A DNA stretch of 21,600 nt from a virus, in the IMG/VR virus record IMGVR_UViG_3300008954_000319, positions 1-21,600 of that record. One strand, written 5' to 3'. Made by a program: the position numbers and the translations under genes. How positions within the stretch are numbered: the stretch's first letter is position 1; each line of letters begins with the position of its first letter. Below the pieces are notes generated by a model, which worked only from the letters and a program-made list of their open reading frames with translations, had not been told where the DNA came from and made no database searches. Of this stretch, positions 2,929 through 21,600 are shown in pieces.

Positions 2929-3147
2929 ATGGTGACCTACAAAGATGATGAAAAATTTAATGTTTGGATGAGAGAGATTATCGAATCGGCCTGGCAGGCA
3001 GTTGAGGAATATGAAACCTTTCTGCGTGGTACGGAAAAGTCAAGCAAAAAACTTTCAATCAAAATGCGTAAGTTATACGAACAACTTCCTGTAGACCCCG
3101 ACCGAAAGAGGCGGGGTCTGGATAAAAAAAAGAAAGACCCTATGTGA
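2929..3147 (+). CDS. Hypothetical basic protein
   Basis: The 72-residue protein has an acidic, helical N-terminal half ([20 protein letters not shown]) and a strongly basic C-terminal half ([16 protein letters not shown], then [12 protein letters not shown]). No clear Shine-Dalgarno precedes ATG 2929; GTG 2932 or ATG 2962 are alternatives. Its stop overlaps the guaC start (TGATG), which couples the two genes. Function unknown. Confidence 0.55.
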
Positions 3148-4142
3148 TGCGAATCATTGATGATTTGAAACTTGATTATTGTGATGTTTTAATTAGACCA
3201 AAACGGTCAACACTACAATCCAGAAAAGATGTAGACCTAACCAGAACCTTCCAATTTAGAAATGGTAGGGTATGGACGGGTATTCCTATTGTTGCTTCAA
3301 ACATGGATAATGTTGGTACGATAGAAATGTCAAAAGTTTTATCCGAATACAACATGATTACTTGTTTGAGTAAACATATTCAAACAAATGAATGTGGTGA
3401 AAACACAGCACTTTCCTTTGGTATGACTGAACTCGATACCGAAACACTAGGAGAGGGTATCGGAGATATTGAATTTGTTTGTCTGGATGTAGCAAATGGA
3501 TACAATGAAAAATTTGTAGACTTTGTTAGGTGGGTTCGAAAGGTATATCCCGATACAATTATCATTGCAGGTAATGTTGTAACGGCAGAGCAAACCGAAG
3601 CGCTTATACTAGCGGGTGCGGATATTGTTAAAGTTGGAATTGGGCCAGGCAGTGTTTGTACAACACGAAAAATTACAGGCGTTGGATATCCCCAACTTTC
3701 AGCAGTCATTGAATGTTCCGATGCTGCACATGGTCTTGGTGGTCATGTGATGGCAGATGGTGGATGTACCTGTCCCGGCGATATTGCCAAGTCATTTGGT
3801 GCGGGTGCAGACTTTGTGATGTTGGGTGGTTTACTTGCCGGACATGACGAGTGTGGTGGTGAAGACATGATAGACGATGGTGTACGATACAAGCAATTCT
3901 ATGGCATGTCTAGTGACACTGCTATGAAGAAGCACAATGGCGGTGTGGCGACTTACAGAGCGTCTGAGGGGAAGACAGTACAGGTTCCATATAGAGGCCC
4001 TGTCGCAGATACAGTACAACAGATTTTGGGTGGATTAAGAAGTGCCTGCACTTATGTTGGTGCAAAGAACATTAAACATTTGCCAAAGTGTACGACATTT
4101 ATTAAAGTATACAGACAACTAAACACAGTTTATGGAGAATAA
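3147..4142 (+). CDS. guaC: GMP reductase
   Basis: The 331-residue protein converts GMP to IMP with NADPH, releasing ammonia, and so feeds guanine nucleotides back to the adenine branch. It matches E. coli GuaC along its whole length: [20 protein letters not shown] at the start, NMDNVGT, the active-site loop [13 protein letters not shown] with the catalytic Cys near residue 168, [51 protein letters not shown] and [13 protein letters not shown]. There is no CBS pair, which argues against IMP dehydrogenase. ATG 3147 is chosen over GTG 3144 because it aligns with the family start. It is intact, so the enzyme is probably active. In an AT-rich phage it may shift the host purine pool toward A. Phage-borne guaC is uncommon. 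Confidence 0.93.
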
Positions 4143-5303: not shown

Positions 5304-5305
5304 TA

Positions 5306-5389
5306 CCCGATGTAGTTCAATTGGTAGAATAATACGGCTCAGGCGCCTTAGAGTTTCGTATCGTCTTGGTTCAAGTCCAAGTATCGGGT
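5306..5389 (+). tRNA. tRNA-Leu(CAG)-like gene with irregular anticodon arm
   Basis: The acceptor CCCGATG pairs with TATCGGG (one G-U). The D arm is GTTC-AATTGGTA-GAAT and the T arm is CTTGG-TTCAAGT-CCAAG. Its 84-base length suits a class II tRNA with a long variable arm. The anticodon stem TACGG (5333-5337) pairs with CCTTA (5346-5350) with one C-U mismatch, and the loop CTCAGGCG has eight bases and would show CAG. Alternatively ATACG (5332-5336) pairs with CGTAT (5357-5361), giving a long hairpin with no anticodon loop. The discriminator is T, unusual for leucine. Identity is therefore tentative. Confidence 0.55.
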
Positions 5390-5395
5390 TTTAAT

Positions 5396-8649: not shown

Positions 8650-8983
8650 GGGGTCGAACGGTATCGACTGGTTAACAGAATAAGAGATAGCATGTCGAGG
8701 TTGGTCAGCACGCCTCGTAAAAAGCAGACCAAATGCTTAACTGGCAACAATAGTTACTCTCGAGCGGCTTGACCGCTTGACCACAATTTCTTTACTCCGA
8801 TAGAGAAGGCGTGGCAAACATCGGATAGATACGACCAGATGGTGGTGACAGAAAGTATCGAAATTACACCCACCAACCTCACCAAGTTTGTCGCCGAACA
8901 ACAGTGAGTACAACAGGCGACTATGCATGTAGACATCCTTTGGAAGTTAATGCAGCACGGGGGTTCGAATCCCCCCGACTCCA
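8650..8983 (+). ncRNA. ssrA: tmRNA (one-piece, phage-encoded), predicted tag GNNSYSRAA
   Basis: tmRNA rescues stalled ribosomes and adds a degradation tag. The 5' end GGGGTCGAACGG and the 3' end with GGGGG-TTCGAAT-CCCCC followed by CGACTCC-A form the tRNA-like domain, with acceptor GGGGTCG (8650-8656) paired to CGACTCC (8976-8982). The tag frame reads GGC AAC AAT AGT TAC TCT CGA GCG GCT TGA (8743-8772), giving Gly-Asn-Asn-Ser-Tyr-Ser-Arg-Ala-Ala. The end is Arg-Ala-Ala instead of the usual Leu-Ala-Ala. No CCA is encoded. At 334 bases, size and order are normal for a one-piece tmRNA. tRNA-Glu follows after 12 bases. Confidence 0.95.
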
Positions 8984-11700: not shown

Positions 11701-12360
11701 ATGAAAAGTTTTTCCGAGTTCAAAAAAACACCTAACCTGTCCGAATTGGTCTATAAGACTGCTCCCGATTTTAATGATCATCGTGTCATGACGAAGGAAG
11801 TGGTTTTATTTGATATGTCCCAACCCTTCGATATAAACCCACCTTTAGCAAATGATAGTGAAGAGGTATATGTTGAATTGATGGAGATTGCCGACCATAT
11901 GGAATTAACTTTATTCGAAGATAAACAACAGGCAGAAGAGTATGATACCATAACATTTTCTGATGCATTTATTGATTATTGTATAGAGAATGGTCTTCCT
12001 ATCAACGAATCTAAGATAGTTAAGATGACAAAAGAGATGGGCATTATTGATAGACAGATGAAATATCGATTCAATCGACCACGACCATCACAGATTGCAG
12101 AAGCAAGAGAAGTTAAATTTCCTGAAATCCATACTAATACAGGCAACACGCCATCGTATCCATCAGGACACGCATTGGCATCACGGGTCTTTTCGTTGTA
12201 TTTGGGTAACATATTCCCATCTCACAAACAAGAATTCCTAAATATAGAAGAACAAATAGGGATATCCCGTATGCAACTTGGTGTACACTTCCCAAGTGAT
12301 ATTGAAGCGGGTGCATCAGTTGGGAACCAACTATACCAAAGGTTAAAGGATAAGACATGA
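11701..12360 (+). CDS. PAP2-family (class A acid) phosphatase with capsid-targeting-like leader
   Basis: This 219-residue phosphatase uses a covalent phospho-histidine intermediate to remove phosphate from lipids, nucleotides or sugars. All three PAP2 motifs are present: KYRFNRPRP (KX6RP, about 121-129), YPSGHA (PSGH, about 152-157), and SRMQLGVHFPSD (SRX5HX3D, about 187-198). The enzyme should be active. No membrane spans are seen, so it resembles soluble acid phosphatases. The N-terminus MKSFSEFKKTPNLSE looks like a T4 capsid-targeting leader ending in L-x-E. The gene starts at ATG 11701 with GGAG upstream, heads the operon, and overlaps the next gene by ATGA. The substrate is unknown. Confidence 0.9.
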   Translation: MKSFSEFKKTPNLSELVYKTAPDFNDHRVMTKEVVLFDMSQPFDINPPLANDSEEVYVELMEIADHMELTLFEDKQQAEEYDTITFSDAFIDYCIENGLPINESKIVKMTKEMGIIDRQMKYRFNRPRPSQIAEAREVKFPEIHTNTGNTPSYPSGHALASRVFSLYLGNIFPSHKQEFLNIEEQIGISRMQLGVHFPSDIEAGASVGNQLYQRLKDKT

Positions 12361-13700
12361 AATCATTTATGACACACTCTGAGTTACTAGTAGAGGCAGA
12401 CACTTCTGCTTCTACGCTTTTTGAACAAGTAATTTGCGATTGTTGGAATATTATCTCCAAGAATCCTAAAATGACTTTTGAACAATGGATGGGGTCATCG
12501 AAGAAAGAAATGGCATTCCTTAAATCGTTTGTGAAAAAATATGGTGGGAAGAAATTTGGTATCCCTGCTGTAAAGAAAAACGATTACGAACCAGCACTCG
12601 GCAAAATGTATAGATTTGCAAAACTTCTCCACAATAAAGCAAGTAAACTTGGTGGTTCAGCCGAACAGGTTGGAAGAGACAAGGGTGCAGTATCGGGTTG
12701 GTGGAAAGACATGACAGCCAAGAAGGTGGACACTTGGAAAACGGATATTGCGATTGGTTCTGCACGAATATCTGTTAAAAATGGTAAGGGTGCAAGGCTT
12801 ATGTCTGGAGTCACCGAAGAATCTGTCGCAACTCTTCATGCTGCCGCTAAAAAGTCTAAACTAGATGAAGTACTTCGAACAGATATAGAAATACTAATGA
12901 ATGAGTTCGTATCATTAAAACTTTGGAATCAGCCAGGCACTCCATTGGCCAATCCAAATACGGGTGCTGGTGAGAAGGTTTTGAAAATTGATAAGAAAGA
13001 AAGAGATAAATGGTTATCTGATAGAAACAAAGAGTCACTCGAAATTTTACAAGAAGGTTACGACCTAAAAGACAAAGTTGTTAAAGCGGTAGAAACGGCC
13101 TTTAGTTCCAATCCATCATTTCAAAGAGCATTTGCATATGAAGCCTGTACAGGATGGGAAAAGTTTGGTGGTAAAGTTTTCGGAAAAGCCGGTGAAGATG
13201 CTGCTCGTGCAGATTACATGTTAGCATTCTCGGAAGACCTCGAAAAACTAAGAATAGAACACATGGGTTCGGTTAGTTCTAAAGTCATCGGGCATATTGC
13301 AGGGCAAATGTCAATAGCCCCCGATTTCAAGAGCAATCGCTTTTCAGAAAGAGGGAAGAAGGCCGGACAAAAAATTTATCAATCATTTCAAATGAAACTG
13401 ACAACAATCTTTAAAGATGCAGATAAAATCCAAAAAGAATCAAATGAAGAAATTGAAAAATGGGAAAACATGTTGACTGAAGGACTTATTTCAGAACTTG
13501 CATTATGGGACAAGATAAAATCTATCACATCGAAGATGTGGAATGCTTTCAAGGAGATGTGGGCCCGAGCAAGAACAGCAATGTTGGAATTTGTTGATAA
13601 GGTAAAGCAAGCACTTAACGAAGGATTGAATGGCATACTTGCCGCCTTCGATTTTGATATTAGTGCAGTAAAACACAAAACGGAGGTTAACCTATTATGA
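12357..13700 (+). CDS. Possible PD-(D/E)xK nuclease-like virion protein with capsid-targeting-like leader
   Basis: The 447-residue protein has a leader MKSFMTHSELLVE followed by Ala, which matches the T4 prohead protease site (L/I-x-E, then A/G). Residues 127-152 contain WKTDIAIGSARISVKNGKG followed by RLMSG. The spacing of Asp130 and S-x-K (139-141), with a second strand between, resembles the D...(D/E/S)xK core of restriction-endonuclease-fold nucleases. The rest is helical, and the C-terminal 100 residues include amphipathic helices (WNAFKEMWARARTAMLEFV). A strong site GGAGG near its end drives the next gene. If the leader is cleaved, this could be a nuclease injected with the DNA. The function is an inference; a purely structural role is possible. 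Confidence 0.6.
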   Translation: MKSFMTHSELLVEADTSASTLFEQVICDCWNIISKNPKMTFEQWMGSSKKEMAFLKSFVKKYGGKKFGIPAVKKNDYEPALGKMYRFAKLLHNKASKLGGSAEQVGRDKGAVSGWWKDMTAKKVDTWKTDIAIGSARISVKNGKGARLMSGVTEESVATLHAAAKKSKLDEVLRTDIEILMNEFVSLKLWNQPGTPLANPNTGAGEKVLKIDKKERDKWLSDRNKESLEILQEGYDLKDKVVKAVETAFSSNPSFQRAFAYEACTGWEKFGGKVFGKAGEDAARADYMLAFSEDLEKLRIEHMGSVSSKVIGHIAGQMSIAPDFKSNRFSERGKKAGQKIYQSFQMKLTTIFKDADKIQKESNEEIEKWENMLTEGLISELALWDKIKSITSKMWNAFKEMWARARTAMLEFVDKVKQALNEGLNGILAAFDFDISAVKHKTEVNLL

Positions 13701-14026
13701 GCGAAGACACACCACTAGAAAACTATTTCGAAGAAGTCGATTTTGGATTCACGGCTGTCGATGCCGATTCTGTAGAAGGAAACGAAACAGATGGCACACA
13801 ATCTTCCGAATCTCTTCAACGACTTGAGGGCAAGGTTGATTCTTTAATCAGTTGTGCCACAACGGAAAGTGCATACAGAGATAAGTTCGATGATATCGAA
13901 GCACTCATTATTCCCCTCCTCTATAACCTGAAGAAAAACCCAGATAAAGAATATATCTATTGGCCTGATCGAGAAGAAAAACTTCAAGAACAGATTGATA
14001 AGATTATCAGTATCACTAGGAGTTGA
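13697..14026 (+). CDS. Conserved marine T4-like phage protein of unknown function
   Basis: The 109-residue protein starts at ATG 13697 with CGGAGGTTAACC upstream, overlapping the previous stop. The acidic start ENYFEEVDFGFTAVDAD, a short helix (LQRLEGKVDSLIS) and the end LLYNLKKNPDKEYIYWPDRE, with a final helix, form a pattern I have seen in T4-like marine phages, without known function. The Tyr/Trp-rich end and helix suggest a protein-protein contact, perhaps in the head or as an adaptor. It carries no leader peptide of the MKxF type. Confidence 0.68.
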   Translation: MSEDTPLENYFEEVDFGFTAVDADSVEGNETDGTQSSESLQRLEGKVDSLISCATTESAYRDKFDDIEALIIPLLYNLKKNPDKEYIYWPDREEKLQEQIDKIISITRS

Positions 14027-14028
14027 CG

Positions 14029-15222
14029 ATGAAAGTGTTTAGTGAGTTCCTAACGGAGTCAAAAAATCTCCACATGGAACATCTGGAAGATTCTGTTTTT
14101 AACGAAGGGTCGGCCGGTGTGCTTGACGCTATTCGTTTTCTAGAGTCTATCAAGAACATGTTAACTTCGTCTGAAGAAAGTGGTATTCGTGTTACAGTAA
14201 AATGGGACGGTGCGCCTGCTGTGTTTGCGGGAACCAATCCAGAGAATGGTAAATTCTTTGTAGGAACCAAATCAATATTCAATAAAGTCACCCCAAAGAT
14301 TAATTACACAAATGCAGACATTGACTCGAATCACAGTGGTAATCTTGCAAGTAAATTAAAGGTTGCATTGAAGTATATGCCAGACTTAGGAATTAAAGAT
14401 GTATTACAGGGAGATTTATTATTCACCGATGATGTTGCACCCGAAAAAATCGATGGTGAAATTTATTACACCTTTACACCAAACACTATCACTTATGCGG
14501 TTCCTGTTACCAGTGACATGGGCAAAGTAATTAAAAAAGCAAAGATGGGTATTGTATTTCACACCAAATATTCTGGTAAAACCATGGCAGACATGAAGGC
14601 ATCCTTTAATCCAAATGTAAAATCATTATCCTCCTCATCGGACATCTATTTCAGTGATGCAGATGTAGAAGATTTTTCTGGTGTTATGATTACAGATACC
14701 GAGAAAAAAGATATAGAAGATTCTCTTGCAAAATGTAAATCGCTTTTAAGAAAATCAACAAAAGTAATTGATATAATTTCTAACGATGCCAGTTTAGTAG
14801 AACAGATTAAAATATTCTCTAATACTTTAATTCGTGCTGGTGCGGTTAATGCAACGGTTGATGCATTTCTAGAACACATGGAGAATAGATTTGATGGTGA
14901 GATAGAAAAAGCAAAAAGTGATAAAGGAAAAGCAAATAAACAAAAAGCAAAGAAAGATTTCATGAAGAAGATTAAGAAATCTGCATTGCAGGCTTCATTC
15001 GCATTACATACTGCTTTGATAGATGCAAAGATGCCTCTTATTCGTAAATTAGAATCTATTAAATCAATGGGTTCATTTATTAAAACAAACAACGGTTATC
15101 GTGTAACCGCCCCTGAAGGGTTTGTTGCTGTGGATTTAGACGGCAAAGCCCTTAAACTTATTGATAGATTAGAATTCAGTCGTGCGAACTTTACAGTCGC
15201 AAAGAACTGGGATAAAACCTGA
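14029..15222 (+). CDS. DUF6267-like protein with KxDG motif and capsid-targeting-like leader
   Basis: The 397-residue protein starts at ATG 14029 behind TAGGAGTTGACG; the TTG at 14023 is rejected. The leader MKVFSEFLTE fits the series in this operon; a second site, VFNE then Gly, lies at 23-27. Residues 55-68 read VTVKWDGAPAVFAG. KWDG matches motif I (KxDG) of ATP-dependent ligases and nucleotidyltransferases, where Lys takes the AMP. A later KMGIVFHTKYSG could be the motif IV-like strand. The overall pattern matches a family common in marine T4-like phages (DUF6267, by memory). The C-terminal third is Lys-rich and helical. Possible roles are nucleic-acid end joining or adenylation, but activity is unproven. 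Confidence 0.68.
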   Translation: MKVFSEFLTESKNLHMEHLEDSVFNEGSAGVLDAIRFLESIKNMLTSSEESGIRVTVKWDGAPAVFAGTNPENGKFFVGTKSIFNKVTPKINYTNADIDSNHSGNLASKLKVALKYMPDLGIKDVLQGDLLFTDDVAPEKIDGEIYYTFTPNTITYAVPVTSDMGKVIKKAKMGIVFHTKYSGKTMADMKASFNPNVKSLSSSSDIYFSDADVEDFSGVMITDTEKKDIEDSLAKCKSLLRKSTKVIDIISNDASLVEQIKIFSNTLIRAGAVNATVDAFLEHMENRFDGEIEKAKSDKGKANKQKAKKDFMKKIKKSALQASFALHTALIDAKMPLIRKLESIKSMGSFIKTNNGYRVTAPEGFVAVDLDGKALKLIDRLEFSRANFTVAKNWDKT

Positions 15223-15245
15223 TACATAGAATAGGAGAAACAACT

Positions 15246-15377
15246 ATGAGACGATCAGAAGTAAGAAAAACCGATTCAAGAGCTAAGGAACGAAGAAGAC
15301 GAGCCGAAGCCGCAGAGCAAGTTGCAGTTGTAGCACCTGCCCCTGTAAAAAAGAAATCTTCTGTTAAGAAGAAGTAA
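15246..15377 (+). CDS. Small basic protein
   Basis: A 43-residue frame runs from ATG 15246 (AGGAGAAACAACT upstream) to TAA 15377. It is very basic at both ends (MRRSEVRKTDSRAKERRRRA and KKKSSVKKK), with an Ala/Val/Pro linker in the middle. Composition suggests DNA or RNA binding, for example a DNA-condensing internal protein. No family is recognised. The good ribosome site and position between two operon genes support it. Confidence 0.62.
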   Translation: MRRSEVRKTDSRAKERRRRAEAAEQVAVVAPAPVKKKSSVKKK

Positions 15378-15388
15378 AGGAAACTATT

Positions 15389-15493
15389 ATGTTTGAAGAT
15401 ATTTGGTGGAGCGCTTTAATGTTCATCGGTGGAGCACTTATTGGTGTACCTCTGTGGAATTGGCTCAAAACAAAGTTGCCTTGGAGCAACTAA
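15389..15493 (+). CDS. Small single-span membrane protein
   Basis: A 34-residue frame runs from ATG 15389 (AAAGGAAACTATT upstream) to TAA 15493. Residues 5-25 (IWWSALMFIGGALIGVPLW) form one hydrophobic span with flanking Trp residues, and the tail is NWLKTKLPWSN. It would insert in the inner membrane. The role is unknown: possibly lysis timing, injection or membrane anchoring. Confidence 0.6.
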   Translation: MFEDIWWSALMFIGGALIGVPLWNWLKTKLPWSN

Positions 15494-15553
15494 TTAATTA
15501 GAGGTCGTGACCAGAGGGCAAACGGTGGTTGACGAACTCGGAGGTGATCAAAA

Positions 15554-17842
15554 ATGATCGATTTTCAATCTTTACAAAATAAACTCGATGAAAAGCGTGC
15601 GAACGCTGTCGTTTTTACATTTGGCAGATTCCAACCACCCACCTCTGGTCATGAGTTCTTAATTAATAATACAATTAAAGAAGCAAAGAAAAGAGGGGCA
15701 GAGAATAGAATCTACATGAGTAGAAGAGATGAACCAAAAAAGAATCCTCTTAAAATACGAGACAAGATTAAATTCCTGAAGAAGTTCTTTCCGAAAGCCA
15801 ACATCATGAACGACCCAAAGGCCGATAATCCTTTTCAGGTTTGTGAACAATTAACGGCAGAAGGTGTACGAGATGTTATTATGGTCGTTGGTTCTGACCG
15901 TGTACAAGAATTTAAAGATGGAATCGAACAATATATTGGCCCCGATGGATATGATTTTGATTCGTTTGATGTAGTAAGTGCTGGTCAGCGTGACCCCGAA
16001 GCATCTGGTGTTGTTGGTATGTCTGGAACAAAGATAAGAGCGGCAGTAACAAATAATGATTTCACAACCTTTAACCAAGGACTACCAAGTACGGCAAAAG
16101 ATAGAGATGCTCGTGCATTGTTTGATGCAATGAAAAAAGGAATGGGTATTCGTGAAGAAGTTATATCCGAGGGCATCAGTAACACACAACTTAAAACTAT
16201 TGCAAAAGATAGAGATGTTGTTGATATGTTGAAAGACCTCTACAGAGAACCCCACGAAACTATTGGAATCGCTCTTTTATCGTTGCCTCATGTGGAAGAT
16301 GTTCTTGGTGCAATTAGTGACCGCATAGTTCGGCAATTCATTACTAAAATTCCTATGCTTATGAATTTTGCAAGCATTGTCAGTCATGTAGAATCTCCAG
16401 CAAAACCAGTTCTGTCTGAAATAACGAGCCAACCTGCGGTGCGACTAGCTGACCCCCTAACACCCCGCATTTTCCTTAATGAACAGGAAGATAAAAAGAA
16501 AGACCCCATCATTGTTACTGCTCTAACATCAGGTGAAGGTGATGACAGTAAAGATACTGTTACTAAAATTGAAAAATCTTGTAAGAAGTTTGGACTTACA
16601 ATGCACACTGTTAGAGTCGGAGAAGCATATGTTGTGGATGACGATTTGAATGATGATAAGATTACCATATACAACTACGATGGAGATAAAAACGACTTAG
16701 ACATCGAAGCCTCCAAGACATGTTGTTTTGTTCGTGGTGGTGCCCTTGTTGACATTACTGGAATAGGAATTGCAAAAACTCTACAAGAGGCTGGTGTTTT
16801 CTTAATTAATGACATGGAGGCAATGGAACTTTGTCAAAATAAATTTGCAACATCTATTGCACTTCAGAAGGCAGGAATCCTTCATCCCAAAACTGCACTT
16901 GTAACAAACGAAGATGCCATCGAAACTGTACACGAAAAGGTCGGTGGTAAGTTCCCTGTGGTTGTAAAGACCATCACTGGTGCAGAAGGAATTGGTGTCA
17001 TGATTATTGATAGTATGCCATCCCTCAAGTCTGTACTACAGGGTTTGTGGAAATACAATGCAGAACTAATCGTTCAAGAGTACATGGACATCGACTTTGA
17101 TGTTAGAACACTTGTACTAGACGGAAAGATTCATGCATCCGTAAAACGATTAAAATCAAACTCAAGGGAGTTCCGTACTAACAAGGCCTTGGGCAACGAT
17201 ACAGAACCTTATATTCTGAATGAGGGTGAAAAGAAAATCATATTAAAGGCTGCAAGTATATCGGGTTGTTATTATTGTGGTGTTGACCATGTTGTTGTAA
17301 ATGGTGAAAATCTAATACTAGAAGTTAACGGTTCGCCGGGTTCTGGTGCAGAACCATACATGAGTTATTATAAGGAAGATAAAAAAACAACTGGCCAAGA
17401 AATGATTGATAATGTTGTTGAATATATTTCGGATACAGACAACTGGGACAGAGATAAAGTTGTTGTTGGTGTCGTTGAGAATGTTGATATAGAAGGAATG
17501 AAGTTTAAAGCAAAGATGGATACGGGAAATGGAAGTTACACGGCTATTCATGCTACTGACATTAAACAATTGAGTGATACACGGGTTTCATTTAAGATAG
17601 AAGGTAAGAAATTTATCAAACCTATCGAGGGAGTGAAACGCATTCGTGTAAGTGGTGCAGAAAAGAAAGAAGAAAGATTTGTTGTAGAACTGGACATGGG
17701 TTTCGGTACGGGGAAAAAATCTTCAACACTGTTTAGTTTAGATGACAGGGATGATATGATTTATCCTGTACTAGTCGGCAAACGAGAATTATTGAAACGG
17801 GGGTATATCGTTGATGTTGGGAAGAAATTTACGATATCCTAG
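15554..17842 (+). CDS. Tripartite fusion: nucleotidylyltransferase + RimK-like ATP-grasp ligase + RimB-like protease domain
   Basis: The 762-residue protein starts at ATG 15554 behind a perfect GGAGGTGATC site. Residues 15-200 are a cytidylyltransferase/NMNAT-type domain: FTFGRFQPPTSGH (HxGH-like, 21-33) and MSGTKIRAA (ISSTxxR-like, 156-164). Residues 200-318 are a linker. Residues 319-630 are RimK-like ATP-grasp: QNKFATSIALQKAG (428-441), KFPVVVKT (466-473), LIVQEYMD, and LILEVNGSPGSG (587-598), which supplies the metal ligands. Residues 636-762 resemble the 'ATP-dependent zinc protease'/RimB family: FKAKMDTGNGSYTAIHA (651-667, with the D-T-G) and YPVLVGKRELLKRGYIVDVG. RimK adds glutamates to ribosomal protein S6 or joins amino acids to peptides, and RimB is its operon partner. 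The fusion suggests a self-contained modifying system with unknown substrate. Confidence 0.85.
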   Translation: MIDFQSLQNKLDEKRANAVVFTFGRFQPPTSGHEFLINNTIKEAKKRGAENRIYMSRRDEPKKNPLKIRDKIKFLKKFFPKANIMNDPKADNPFQVCEQLTAEGVRDVIMVVGSDRVQEFKDGIEQYIGPDGYDFDSFDVVSAGQRDPEASGVVGMSGTKIRAAVTNNDFTTFNQGLPSTAKDRDARALFDAMKKGMGIREEVISEGISNTQLKTIAKDRDVVDMLKDLYREPHETIGIALLSLPHVEDVLGAISDRIVRQFITKIPMLMNFASIVSHVESPAKPVLSEITSQPAVRLADPLTPRIFLNEQEDKKKDPIIVTALTSGEGDDSKDTVTKIEKSCKKFGLTMHTVRVGEAYVVDDDLNDDKITIYNYDGDKNDLDIEASKTCCFVRGGALVDITGIGIAKTLQEAGVFLINDMEAMELCQNKFATSIALQKAGILHPKTALVTNEDAIETVHEKVGGKFPVVVKTITGAEGIGVMIIDSMPSLKSVLQGLWKYNAELIVQEYMDIDFDVRTLVLDGKIHASVKRLKSNSREFRTNKALGNDTEPYILNEGEKKIILKAASISGCYYCGVDHVVVNGENLILEVNGSPGSGAEPYMSYYKEDKKTTGQEMIDNVVEYISDTDNWDRDKVVVGVVENVDIEGMKFKAKMDTGNGSYTAIHATDIKQLSDTRVSFKIEGKKFIKPIEGVKRIRVSGAEKKEERFVVELDMGFGTGKKSSTLFSLDDRDDMIYPVLVGKRELLKRGYIVDVGKKFTIS

Positions 17843-17853
17843 CATTTAAAAGA

Positions 17854-17863
17854 GATAAATAAC
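17854..17863 (+). promoter_or_regulatory. T4-late-promoter-like motif (GATAAATAAC)
   Basis: GATAAATAAC agrees with the TATAAATA late promoter of T4 and its cyanophage variants at most positions, and is similar to the TTATACATAC motifs in this window. Transcription would begin at about 17868, inside the start of the next ORF. If used, translation would therefore begin at ATG 17974, which has its own GGTGAGGAG site. Confidence 0.35.
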
Positions 17864-17865
17864 TT

Positions 17866-18780
17866 ATGAGTAAAAAAACAAAATGTACTAGTGGTGCTGG
17901 AGAAGAAGGAACAGACCAACTTCGAAAAAACTACGAAGAAGATACGCCCGGCCAGGGTGAGGAGAAAAAGAAAATGAAGTTTAAAGAACTTAGAAATAAG
18001 ATCAATGAGTGGTCAACGGGTCACAATGAATTCGAAATTGCGGGTTCGGACACTGACATCATGTATATTGAAAATGCTGAAACCCGTGTTCGTCTTAATA
18101 CCTTTATCAAAGCTGTTGCACATCACCCAACCCTTAATGTTTATGAAACATTGGCAAAGGTTCGGGTCAAGTTGAATGGTGCTGGATTAGATTTTGAACC
18201 ACCTAAAAGTGGTGCAGTACAAGAGGTAATGGAATTTCCTTTATCCCTGTTCGGTGGCAGAACTGGCATGGGTGATGATGGACAACCAATCAATGATGAT
18301 GGATTAAAGAATCGTACAGGTCGTGAATGGGTTCTTCGTGTTACTTCTGAAGAAACTTCAGATGGTTATGTTCTTAGTCCTTCGATTGAAGAAGTTGCAC
18401 TTGTTGAAGAGTCTTGGATACCAGAAGGAACTGAACCTGAAAATTTTGAATTAGCCGAGGGCAAAATCGAAGAGAGAGAACTAGAACTGTTTGTTGCAAA
18501 CGATGCTCAAATCTACCGTTCTCGGCTGCAACCAATTTATAAGAATCTTATTACTAAGATTGCTCAAGGTAAGTATGACGAAAAAAAGGCAGTGAAAGCT
18601 TTCATGTATGCTGTTGATGATGCAGCAAAGAAGTACACGAAAGATTTCGGTACGCCTGGTGATGAAATATTTGACAAGAAGACCAAGTTAGCAGTTGCTG
18701 CTACTCTTGCTTCTGAATTTAAAGATGAGGCCGATGAAGGAAATTATGACGACATGCTTCCAAAGAAATATCGTTCATGA
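17866..18780 (+). CDS. Virion-associated protein of unknown function, two possible starts
   Basis: The 304-residue ORF begins at ATG 17866. Its first 36 residues (KCTSGAGEEGTDQLRKNYEE, then DTPGQ) resemble a peptide I have seen in marine phage proteins, so they are probably translated. ATG 17974, behind GGTGAGGAG, gives a shorter form starting MKFKELRNKINE, like the leader peptides of neighbouring genes (I-x-E at the end). Middle: YIENAETRVRLNTFIKAVAH, then GRTGMGDDGQPINDD; C-terminus helical (NLITKIAQGKYDEKKAVKAF). I recognise it only as a likely conserved T4-like marine phage structural or internal protein. Its stop is followed after one base by the next start. Confidence 0.65.
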   Translation: MSKKTKCTSGAGEEGTDQLRKNYEEDTPGQGEEKKKMKFKELRNKINEWSTGHNEFEIAGSDTDIMYIENAETRVRLNTFIKAVAHHPTLNVYETLAKVRVKLNGAGLDFEPPKSGAVQEVMEFPLSLFGGRTGMGDDGQPINDDGLKNRTGREWVLRVTSEETSDGYVLSPSIEEVALVEESWIPEGTEPENFELAEGKIEERELELFVANDAQIYRSRLQPIYKNLITKIAQGKYDEKKAVKAFMYAVDDAAKKYTKDFGTPGDEIFDKKTKLAVAATLASEFKDEADEGNYDDMLPKKYRS

Positions 18781-18781
18781 G

Positions 18782-19150
18782 ATGAATATTGAACTAGATG
18801 ATGATAACCTTTTGAACTATGCGATGAAGCACTATGACAATCCAGAGTGCAAATCAATTGAAGAATTTCAAGAGGACTTGACCAGAACCAAATATATTAA
18901 ACGGTTGTTTCGCAAGTATAAATCGTCTGGTGAATTAAAAGAACGATTGATTCTAAATCATATTATTATTTTTTACAATGTATTTGGCATTGAAGCGGCA
19001 ACAAACATTTTGTTTTTTAAGATTGAAGATGAATTTTGGCCCTTATTGAAAACCTTTCTAGTTTACCTAGACATGTTCCCCGAAAATGATATAGAGAAGA
19101 TTAGGATTCCGTTAGAGAACACAGTCATTGAAGTATTAAGGAAAATCTAA
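18782..19150 (+). CDS. Conserved T4-like marine phage protein of unknown function
   Basis: The 122-residue protein starts at ATG 18782, one base after the upstream stop; the longer ORF to 18695 is the shadow of that gene. The sequence YAMKHYDNPECKSIEEFQED, then KYIKRLFRKYKSSGELKERL and ILNHIIIFYNVFGIEAATNI, is a pattern I associate with a small conserved virion-region protein of marine T4-like phages. It is mostly helical, with a hydrophobic middle. It overlaps the next start by TAATG. Function unknown. Confidence 0.72.
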   Translation: MNIELDDDNLLNYAMKHYDNPECKSIEEFQEDLTRTKYIKRLFRKYKSSGELKERLILNHIIIFYNVFGIEAATNILFFKIEDEFWPLLKTFLVYLDMFPENDIEKIRIPLENTVIEVLRKI

Positions 19151-19716
19151 TGAGTGCTTTAGACATCTTTGTTGCCTACAAGTTTATTAAGATACTTACC
19201 ACGCCGTTTGAAAAAACGGATGCATATAAACTGGGAATCATAGACAAAAAAGGTGAGATTTTAAAGAAGCGCAAAAAATTAGTAACAGGTAAAGAGAAGA
19301 TGGCATATACTATCTTCCATACCCTCGGATGGAATCTTAAAAAACTTTTAGCTAAGTTTCCCCCAACCAGAACAAAACTTGGATCATTCGCTGCTGCACT
19401 TTATCTTTTGAAAGAAGAGGCCAAGTGCAACGATGAACATTTAATAGAGAACACATTTATAGATTTTCTACATACTAATGGTTATACTTTTGTCATAAAT
19501 GAGAGTATTACCGAAGCAGTATTAGAAAAGGGTGATTATGCCCTTGTAGTTGATGTGGATACTCCCAAAGAACCCGTTCATCAGGGAGACATTGTTAGGG
19601 TAGACAAGGACACGGAACACTTTACATTAATGATGGGGAAACCTTTATTCAAGGTGACACATCTTAAATCAGGAAAAACATTGGTGGTATCAGATGAAGA
19701 CTTGGAAAAAATTTAA
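19150..19716 (+). CDS. Conserved T4-like marine phage protein of unknown function
   Basis: The 188-residue protein starts at ATG 19150. The N-terminal part FVAYKFIKILTTPFEKTDAY, then KLGIIDKKGEILKK and EKMAYTIFHTLGWNLKKLLA, is strongly similar to a family I know from cyanophages and other marine T4-like phages, where it lies in the structural region. The C-terminal 60 residues have alternating strands (DYALVVDVDTPKEPVHQGDI, LFKVTHLKSGKTLVVS) like a small beta-barrel. Its last 23 bases overlap the leader of the next gene in another frame. Function unknown. Confidence 0.74.
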   Translation: MSALDIFVAYKFIKILTTPFEKTDAYKLGIIDKKGEILKKRKKLVTGKEKMAYTIFHTLGWNLKKLLAKFPPTRTKLGSFAAALYLLKEEAKCNDEHLIENTFIDFLHTNGYTFVINESITEAVLEKGDYALVVDVDTPKEPVHQGDIVRVDKDTEHFTLMMGKPLFKVTHLKSGKTLVVSDEDLEKI

Positions 19717-21082
19717 AACAGACAACATCCACGAAGCAGAAACTCTTAGTTGGAAATCTTTGAATCCCAGTGAGAGAAAAGACCTTCTAAAAGATGCTGG
19801 TTTACCCCCTTCGTTTGCTAAAGAGACTTGGAAAGAATTAGATTTCCGTGCCAAAGAACGAATCGGTAAGATGATTCATAAGACTACCCAAGGTGAGTTC
19901 CGAATGGATGAAGCGTGGACACCAGATAGTGTAACTCGAAATGCTGAAATCGGTTCTAAAAAAGGTTATGGTATCAATATCAAAAAGGGTGGTGGAGTTA
20001 CCAAAACCCCATTCAAACACATGCTTATGACAATTCGCAAACACGGGAATGTCAGAGTTACTTTTGACCACGGTAAAGATGAGTTTGAAGGTACGCCCCA
20101 ATCAGTTGCCCTTCACATTAATAAAATCCTTGGTATTAAAGAATCCGTTGAAGTGGATGAAAAACATGCACCCTTGCCAGCGTCAACCAGTTTTGCATTG
20201 GTGTATTCCTACAAAGGAAAGACCAATAAGTTCGTCACCAAACTTACTAACCTCGGTGGTAAGTTAGACCGTGCAAAGAAAGAAGTTCGTTTTGAATTTA
20301 AAAGTGCGGCCGCAAGAAAGAATTTTAAGAAGAAAAACAAAGAGATATTAGACAACCTCGGTGAGTCTGCTGTACTTCATAATCTACTAGATGAAGCCCC
20401 CAACACCCTAATTGATAAAGCAATGAAATATATTGATAAAAAACGGGGAGTTGGAGGAAAGGTTTGGGGCGACAGATGGAAAGTCCGTCAAGACATGAAA
20501 CTAACCAAAGCAACATCTGATTCTGGTGGTTCAGTTGAGAAGTTAAAACATGAGGAGTATAATCAAATGAAAACATACAAACAACTTATCACAGAGTTAT
20601 TCGATAACCCATATAAACTAAGTCCAAGTTTTAAAACAAAACCACAGTATTATGATGACAATGAAGGTTATACTTTTAAAACCAAGGACGGTAGAAAATA
20701 CGAAATCAATGCACAACATATTACCCTTCTTGGGGTAGACCACCATAGCAATCAGAAAATCGAGATTGCATTTGCAGTTGTATATGACGATGGTAGAAAA
20801 TCTGACGATATGACAAACAAAGGTGATGCGGGTAGAATTTTTGCAACTGCAATGGAATTCATAGACAAAATAATTAAAAGAGATGACCCAAAACAATTAA
20901 TATTTGCGGCCAAACAGAATGAAAGAGAAAAGGGTGAAAATCTAAGCAGTAGAGAGAAATTATATAGAAGGTTTATAATGAAATTAGCAAAAAAATACAA
21001 ATATAAGGCGTATATGTATAAAAGTGACGGTGAAGGTAAAACCTATTTTGAACTAGAAAAGAAAAAGGAAATAAAAATATGA
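19694..21082 (+). CDS. Putative internal head protein, two-part with a second leader inside
   Basis: The 462-residue protein starts at ATG 19694 with leader MKTWKKFKTDNIHE then Ala, a good match to the I-x-E|A prohead-protease site. Residues 16-60 (SWKSLNPSERKDLLKDAGL) resemble a phage internal-protein module. Residues 151-227 form a basic module (FALVYSYKGKTNKFVTKL) that recurs in the next gene. LLDE then Ala at 231-235 is another candidate cleavage site. Residue 292 begins a second leader, MKTYKQLITE, with GAGGAG nine bases upstream. The part after it (FAVVYDDGRK, RIFATAMEFIDKIIK, SSREKLYRRFIMKLAKKY) is a separate domain common in phages, of unknown function. It is either a processed polyprotein or a gene with an internal start. 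Confidence 0.7.
   Translation: MKTWKKFKTDNIHEAETLSWKSLNPSERKDLLKDAGLPPSFAKETWKELDFRAKERIGKMIHKTTQGEFRMDEAWTPDSVTRNAEIGSKKGYGINIKKGGGVTKTPFKHMLMTIRKHGNVRVTFDHGKDEFEGTPQSVALHINKILGIKESVEVDEKHAPLPASTSFALVYSYKGKTNKFVTKLTNLGGKLDRAKKEVRFEFKSAAARKNFKKKNKEILDNLGESAVLHNLLDEAPNTLIDKAMKYIDKKRGVGGKVWGDRWKVRQDMKLTKATSDSGGSVEKLKHEEYNQMKTYKQLITELFDNPYKLSPSFKTKPQYYDDNEGYTFKTKDGRKYEINAQHITLLGVDHHSNQKIEIAFAVVYDDGRKSDDMTNKGDAGRIFATAMEFIDKIIKRDDPKQLIFAAKQNEREKGENLSSREKLYRRFIMKLAKKYKYKAYMYKSDGEGKTYFELEKKKEIKI
20144..20374 (+). repeat. Duplicated basic module (second copy at 21145-21369)
   Basis: About 75 residues are shared between the protein at 19694 and the next gene: LPASTSFALVY versus LPKATGFALTY, VTKLTNLGGKLDR versus VTKLTKLGGKVDR, SAAARKNFKKKNKEIL versus TAAARTKFRKKNKELL, ending in SV then acidic residues. 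It is a protein-level paralogous duplication, already diverged in DNA. The module is basic and may bind DNA in the head. Confidence 0.8.
20567..21082 (+). CDS. Possible separate internal head protein from an in-frame internal start
   Basis: ATG 20567 is in frame within the larger ORF and is preceded by TGAGGAGTATAATCAA, an excellent ribosome binding site. The product would have 171 residues and begin MKTYKQLITELFDNPYKLSP. This resembles both T4 internal-protein leaders (MKTY.EFI.E) and the T4 Alt leader (ELITELFDED). The domain behind it is independent of the upstream part. Such a site is unlikely to occur by chance at a domain border, so a distinct protein is probable, alone or in addition to the long form. 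Confidence 0.5.
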   Translation: MKTYKQLITELFDNPYKLSPSFKTKPQYYDDNEGYTFKTKDGRKYEINAQHITLLGVDHHSNQKIEIAFAVVYDDGRKSDDMTNKGDAGRIFATAMEFIDKIIKRDDPKQLIFAAKQNEREKGENLSSREKLYRRFIMKLAKKYKYKAYMYKSDGEGKTYFELEKKKEIKI

Positions 21083-21600
21083 AAACTTTTAAACAACATA
21101 TTACCGAAGTACGAAGGATGACGGGTTATCCTTATCAGGAAGATTCTGTAGATGAAAGAACCTCACGACTTCCAAAAGCAACAGGATTTGCATTGACATA
21201 TCCTATGAAAGACAACCAGCAAGTCACAAAACTTACCAAACTTGGTGGAAAAGTAGACAGAGTAAATAAGAGAGTAGTTTTTAATTTTAATACTGCGGCT
21301 GCAAGAACTAAATTTCGTAAGAAGAATAAAGAACTTTTAGCAACTATAAAAGAATCCGTTGAACTGGATGAATCCTTCCCCAAGGGCCCTTGGGATACAA
21401 ATATCCCTGCGGATAAGAAAACCAAAGGATATATCGAAAGTGGTAGAGCAAAGATTCTAATAAATGTGCCTTCTTCTCTCTATCCTTCTGCTCGGTTTGT
21501 TGTGGCAAAAAATCCCAACAAAGGTAGCAACCAAGACAAAGTGATGATGTTTACCATTAGTGACCCAGACCGTGGCCGTATCAAAATGTTCTCATTCCAC
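21079..21600 (+). CDS. Putative internal head protein, partial (cut by window edge)
   Basis: ATG 21079 overlaps the upstream stop (ATGA), with AAAAGGAAATAAAA upstream. The 174 visible residues start with MKTFKQHITE, a leader of the same type. Residues 23-97 are a paralogue of the basic module in the preceding gene. After SVELDESFPKGPWDTNIPAD a new domain begins (AKILINVPSSLYPSARFVVA, DKVMMFTISDPDRGRIKMF), with strands and basic residues, and runs off the window. It is probably a DNA-associated capsid cargo protein. Confidence 0.72.
   Translation, partial: MKTFKQHITEVRRMTGYPYQEDSVDERTSRLPKATGFALTYPMKDNQQVTKLTKLGGKVDRVNKRVVFNFNTAAARTKFRKKNKELLATIKESVELDESFPKGPWDTNIPADKKTKGYIESGRAKILINVPSSLYPSARFVVAKNPNKGSNQDKVMMFTISDPDRGRIKMFSFH

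Follow-up and report, generated by a model that had tools for sequence, protein, structure and literature searches.

T4 internal-protein-type leaders probably mark an enzyme cassette for the head of marine T4-like phages

Why should a PAP2-family phosphatase, a DUF6267 protein and several further products of one phage locus all begin with nearly the same short peptide? The question arises from a viral DNA stretch of 21,600 nucleotides (the window), which is the entire virus record IMGVR_UViG_3300008954_000319 (21.6 kb) and a fragment of a marine T4-like phage. Within positions 11701-21600, eight starts open with a leader of 10-15 residues, and the leader ends in [LI]xE in all eight cases. Seven of these peptides had been named in the initial annotation, and each was found in its place (11701, 12357, 14029, 17974, 19694, 20567 and 21079); an eighth and weaker leader, MIDFQSLQNKLDE/K at 15554, is added here (the slash marks the predicted cut). 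On the evidence assembled below, the leaders are in all probability capsid-targeting propeptides of the T4 internal-protein (IP) type, in a system that has expanded to large enzyme cargo.

A pattern based on T4 IPI-III, MKx[FYW]xx[FHLY]x0-12[IL]xE, matched 6 of the 12 starts in the cluster, whereas applying it outside the cluster returned none of the 22 upstream genes (Fisher p = 7e-4). When residues 2-20 were shuffled in 20,000 trials, 19,843 trials yielded zero matches and 157 yielded one, never more. The starts conform to a 10-19-residue propeptide in which positions 4 and 7 are aromatic, position 8 is hydrophobic and position 10 is Glu; position 7 is F, H or L in the window, and the leader at 17974 is one residue shorter there. 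The starts at 17974 and 20567 sit within longer open reading frames (ORFs), each behind its own Shine-Dalgarno sequence (Table 1). Such a sequence of at least 5 bases precedes only 4 of the 76 internal ATGs of the cluster, and these two are among the four. Moreover, orthologs of the 17974 product start exactly at the leader, with MKNFKNHIAE/E in Melnitz and MKSFKDFQNVNE/K in HTVC008M.

The survey was widened to 80 relatives from IMG/VR that carry a DUF6267 gene, taken with their flanks, together with 3 further loci and 2 complete genomes; these 85 loci and genomes plus the window comprise 1,480 ORFs in 559 families. A strict core pattern was used whose allowed residues were derived from DUF6267 and T4, with residues 2, 3, 5 and 6 left free and V, F or M permitted at P3 besides L and I. 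It matched 159 of the 1,480 ORFs, against 12.6 expected from composition-preserving shuffles, and with DUF6267 set aside 86 against 11.4. Leaders occur in 44 of the 559 families, and the richest locus (L015, 21 kb) holds nine ORFs with a leader, six of them in the strict form. An ancestral piece of a single family was considered as the source of the peptide and ruled out, since 42 other families have the leader. With one representative from each of 34 families the consensus reads MK[ST]FKQ[YF][IL]xE, in which K2, [ST]3, K5 and Q6 are conserved (1.7-2.6 bits) although the search pattern did not constrain them, while from residue 11 onwards conservation is below 1 bit at every position. Of 78 distinct leaders outside DUF6267, 75 have L or I at P3 (p = 7e-19 relative to the residues allowed by the pattern). 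In view of the A/T-rich codons of Lys and Phe and the frequency of K2 in phage proteins, a preference for A/T-rich MK codons at translation starts, or chance, might be thought to produce a shared N-terminus. The probability of this is negligible, given the 159 matches against 12.6, the lack of any among the 22 upstream genes of the same phage, the near-exclusive L/I at P3, the end of conservation past E10 and the correlation with virion location described below.

The leader also behaves as a detachable module. In the DUF6267 family it is present in 73 of 84 members and absent in P-HM2, DSL-LC02, S-SZBM1, S-SM1 and S-CRM01. Leaderless proteins start MSKNTHLEH (P-HM2), MKNTHLEH (DSL-LC02) or MAKNTHLEH (S-SZBM1), that is, at or beside the predicted P1' residue, with no in-frame leader upstream. 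The initial annotation would have been undermined had the leader formed an integral helix of each domain; AlphaFold models show it disordered in one case and as coil of lower confidence in the other. For the 12357 product the predicted local distance difference test score (pLDDT) is 28 over residues 1-10, stays below 50 through residue 17 and exceeds 80 from residue 21, and in DUF6267 residues 1-15 are mostly coil with pLDDT 61-69, compared with about 90 in the first helices. These data show that the leader is a module separable from unrelated mature proteins, gained or lost by many families. The downstream parts had been described as unrelated, which is true of most of them; the products of 19694 and 21079 have a 47%-identical module in common, and to that extent the description does not hold.

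The closest precedent is found in T4 itself. The core pattern gave five hits in T4, including IPII and IPIII, and the IPIII start MKTYQEFIAE/A bears out the comparison with internal proteins made originally. T4 IPI begins MKTFKEFTSTTTPVSTITE/A and has the extended form; since its gene encodes 95 residues and the mature form has 76 (PMC3012670), 19 are lost, and the extended leaders at 11701, 12357 and 19694 thus have a proven counterpart in IPI. When the IPIII propeptide was mutagenised, targeting was assigned mainly to residues 4 and 7 and processing to residues 8 and 10, and the prohead protease gp21 cuts after L/I-x-E (PMC9026906). Positions 4, 7, 8 and 10, conserved here, are the positions mapped in that capsid-targeting sequence. 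A gp21-type protease had been named as something to look for; gp21 (PF03420) and gp23 are encoded by all six relatives with contigs longer than 50 kb, and a gp21-type protease with a T4-type scaffold and capsid is likewise found in S-CREM2, Melnitz and HTVC008M. By comparison with T4 FLTE/AEIGG, gp23 junctions were placed at EVLSE/AVPTN and QYLKE/AAPAN in relatives, at GILTE/AAPT in S-SZBM1 and at AFLSE/AAPT in Melnitz, a likeness which suggests that the end of the leader is a site of this kind. The peptide could in principle direct proteins to another virion site (tail, baseplate or portal) or, as an amphipathic helix, to the host membrane, given that virion proteomics gives no position and that one leader protein of S-CREM2, ORF136, is encoded between terminase genes. 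This is highly improbable: the motif agrees with the T4 head signal wherever this has been mapped, a tail or membrane protein would have no need of an end that fits the prohead-protease consensus, and structural tail proteins do not have the leader.

Virion location could be examined in relatives with published proteomes. For S-CREM2, in whose virion 52 proteins were reported (PMC10665884), all 219 genome proteins were translated and then screened for the core leader. Six carried it, of which five belong to the non-structural virion proteins identified by the published mass spectrometry; the leader is thus found on 5 of 28 non-structural virion proteins versus 1 of 167 undetected ones (Fisher p = 2.4e-4), the single undetected match being a 55-residue ORF. 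The five are an S-adenosylmethionine (SAM) lyase (PF23780, MKDFDSFLEE), an APH-like kinase (VKRFDAFLTE), a cytidylyltransferase (MKNFSSFLTE/A), ORF13 (MKDLHSFLTE) and ORF136 (MQTFSMFFSE). Likewise, the S-SM1 virion protein T4-GC190, a cytidylyltransferase (PMC3037559), begins MKKFSAFLNE/A, the virion cytidylyltransferase of S-SZBM1 (PMC9146016) begins MRFRQFIIE/A, and a kinase of S-CRM01, listed as a virion protein in PMC10665884, begins MISFDQFLSE. In S-SZBM1 the neighbour of the cytidylyltransferase gene encodes a leaderless DUF6267 protein, which is missing from the virion list. The virion enzymes of these four phages therefore resemble the present cluster in having the same leader, in belonging partly to the same families (cytidylyltransferase) and in being located in the virion; in the accessible parts of the proteome papers they are not tied to a capsid-targeting leader. 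The authors of the S-CREM2 study raised the possibility that such proteins contaminate the preparations, being abundant late products. This explanation is very doubtful for the leader proteins, as contamination would not sort by N-terminal motif (5 of 6 leader proteins were detected versus 47 of 213 others) and the same enzyme recurs in the virions of three phages. The correlation in S-CREM2 argues for packaging over contamination.

A further virion protein of S-CREM2, ORF12 (L094, 7704-10313), is annotated as a Cas9 nuclease, a label for which neither Pfam nor PADLOC gave a match. Its leader-like segment LRFASFMAE/AA starts at a CTG codon, after an extension of 16 residues, and was left out of the leader count; the start of S-CRM01 g128 resembles it.

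Several observations weigh against a capsid-targeting role. The S-CREM2 N-termini had been viewed before the pattern was applied, though its allowed residues came from DUF6267 and T4; the published virion proteomes were obtained from particles purified in CsCl, and the S-CREM2 authors were unable to choose between packaging and contamination by highly expressed proteins (PMC10665884). Several non-structural virion proteins, S-SZBM1_139 among them, do not have the leader, which is consequently not the sole route into the virion. T4 IPI is the one proven precedent for the extended form, to which five of the eight leaders in the window belong, and HTVC008M has no strict-core leader. Finally, the 21.6-kb window holds no capsid or head genes, and since it is a fragment the protease and scaffold of its own phage are not seen. 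Nevertheless, three further lines favour capsid targeting as originally proposed, namely the virion correlation in S-CREM2, the positions mapped by IPIII mutagenesis and the DUF6267 proteins that start at the predicted cut.

For the phage of the window, the steps from scaffold binding through cleavage to injection are inferred as follows. The aromatic residues or His at positions 4 and 7 would dock the protein on the prohead scaffold core during head assembly; a gp21-type prohead protease would then cut past the Glu of [LI]xE, a site type also cut in gp23, and the cut enzymes would stay free in the head beside the DNA, to be passed into the host at infection. Accordingly, the locus would form a cassette of head-packed proteins, including the PAP2 phosphatase, the KxDG (DUF6267) protein and others, with the cytidylyltransferase/ATP-grasp fusion probably a part of it. 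Across the survey, leaders are found on PAP2 phosphatases, DUF6267, cytidylyltransferases (alone or fused), adenylate kinase, zeta-toxin-like P-loop kinases, a 5'-nucleotidase-like protein, SAM lyase and a kinase-like protein, and on many families without an assigned function. It is plausible that the common theme of this cargo is early control of host nucleotide, nicotinamide adenine dinucleotide and restriction chemistry. T4 Ip1-3 act against type IV restriction enzymes (PMC12373910), and by analogy a SAM lyase serving counter-restriction would fit such a role. The leader might instead be a scaffold-docking tag for head assembly only, on core parts or helpers without a job in the next host, as IPIII mutants show head-assembly defects (PMC9026906) and the predicted docking residues are identical. 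We regard this as unlikely, however: the cargo consists of enzymes for cellular substrates (PAP2, SAM lyase, adenylate kinase, kinases and cytidylyltransferase) and differs between phages, and T4 Ip1-3 act after injection.

Compared with known systems, the leaders share with T4 IPI, IPII and IPIII a propeptide at the N-terminus, 10-19 residues long and with its key positions at 4, 7, 8 and 10, the [LI]xE cut, unrelated mature parts and the coexistence of short (IPII, IPIII) and extended (IPI) forms. The T4 proteins are small (95-193 residues) and anti-restriction where tested, whereas the cargo described here includes large enzymes from a wide range of families, reaching 462 and 762 residues in the window and 821 residues in S-CRM01. 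The T4 Alt ADP-ribosyltransferase is also a head-packed enzyme that is cut by gp21 and injected, but it starts with MELITELFDE, which differs from the MKxFxxF type. The ejection proteins of phiKZ and SPN3US, which are protease-matured, and DarA and Hdf of P1 are similarly packed in the head and act at infection; phiKZ uses another cut motif, S/A-x-E.

Table 1. Genes of the cluster and their N-terminal leaders (slash, predicted cut)
Product	Coordinates	Strand	Leader and remarks
PAP2-family phosphatase, 219 residues	11701..12360	+	extended, MKSFSEFKKTPNLSE/L at 11701-11745
Protein of unknown fold, 447 residues	12357..13700	+	MKSFMTHSELLVE/A at 12357-12395
109-residue protein	13697..14026	+	no leader, amid leader genes; 42-member family without core leader
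DUF6267 protein (KWDG motif)	14029..15222	+	core, MKVFSEFLTE/S at 14029-14058
Cytidylyltransferase / RimK ATP-grasp / Zn-protease fusion, 762 residues	15554..17842	+	weak leader-like start
Internal-ATG protein	17974..18780	+	MKFKELRNKINE/W; within ORF 17866-18780; AGGAG 9 nucleotides upstream
DUF7207 (phrog_407) protein	18695..19150	+	no leader; PF23837, E=4e-44; 24-member family without leader
phrog_18642 protein, 188 residues	19150..19716	+	no leader in window
Multi-module protein, 462 residues	19694..21082	+	extended, MKTWKKFKTDNIHE/A at 19694-19735; matches pattern
Internal-start protein, 171 residues	20567..21082	+	core, MKTYKQLITE/L; AGGAG 9 nucleotides upstream
Protein cut by contig end	21079..21600	+	core, MKTFKQHITE/V

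The gene order at 12-20 kb of the window follows that at 103.8-116.4 kb in HTVC008M and at 12.2-23.7 kb in Melnitz, and the DUF6267 protein shares about 36-44% identity with proteins from cyanophages, the Pelagibacter phage HTVC008M and Melnitz phages. The 11701 product, preceded by the Shine-Dalgarno sequence GGAG, was correctly assigned to PAP2 at the outset (PF01569, E=5e-14, residues 120-208), and its relatives carry RPRP, PSGH and SR...H...D motifs. Conversely, the label 'nuclease-like' for the 12357 product was not backed by any family or fold match; a nuclease was rejected after Pfam, PHROG, PADLOC, PDB-sequence and fold comparisons gave no support, and only an invariant K.D...S.K pattern remains in the family. 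Relatives at the same place begin MQGFKTFLSE/A, MKTFKQHLTE/A and MKSYQQFLLSE/A, and a pattern scan of IMG/VR found no close relatives. In the 14029 product the match to PF19782 (E=5e-117) begins at residue 13, i.e. after the leader, and KxDG is invariant in the DUF6267 family; a ligase-like nucleotidyltransferase was considered for it, but comparison with solved ligases gave no sequence match and only weak best fold matches (E 1.1-2.5). The 15554 product matches phrog_3041, PF08443 and PF05618, its putative Zn-protease domain being of the ATP-dependent type, and its relatives start MKKFRDILAEA (L006) or MKKFSEIIEA (Melnitz). The DUF7207 gene is a neighbour kept in HTVC008M, Melnitz and cyanophages. 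Residues 1-74 of the 19694 product are conserved in one relative (L086), and the protein has several internal [LI]xE sites between its modules, at which further prohead-protease cuts may be possible. The 20567 region matches phrog_16075, and a Vibrio phage nt-1 protein matches it from residue 2.

Several other features were recorded in the window. Ahead of the 17974 leader (17866-17973), residues 10-30, GAGEEGTDQLRKNYEEDTPGQ, have a copy of 76% identity in a different gene context (L034, 3930-3992); the stretch may be a mobile motif or a small gene that became fused. No T4-type late promoter, TATAAATA, occurs within the window. Upstream lie a gene of the IMP dehydrogenase/GMP reductase family (3144-4142; PF00478, E=3e-76), a tRNA-like gene whose anticodon has four bases (cagg) according to ARAGORN (5305-5390), possibly a frameshift-reading tRNA or a degenerate one, and a phage-encoded transfer-messenger RNA (8650-8983) with the predicted tag GNNSYSRAA, an RNA also present in Melnitz.

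A literature search, in which subscription journals were thinly covered, found no previous description of these leaders from marine T4-like phages. The general idea has been voiced before, in the suggestion that capsid-targeting sequences may let T4-like phages pack various proteins (PMC9026906). In the broader reading, towards which we lean with some reserve, marine T4-like phages use a general, swappable and cleavable tag on dozens of unrelated families, with up to about nine head-packed effectors per phage (phosphatases, kinases, SAM lyase, nucleotidyltransferases and zeta-toxin-like kinases) that differ by phage and act before phage gene expression. Packaging by this route would explain the recurrence of cytidylyltransferases, kinases and SAM lyase in cyanophage virions, which the proteome authors left open. 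The reach of the T4 capsid-targeting signal, familiar from small anti-restriction proteins, would thereby extend to whole enzyme cassettes, with relevance to counter-defence and protein-delivery design, and the leader would provide a sequence rule by which head-packed effectors may be read from the genomes and metagenomes of a very common marine virus group.
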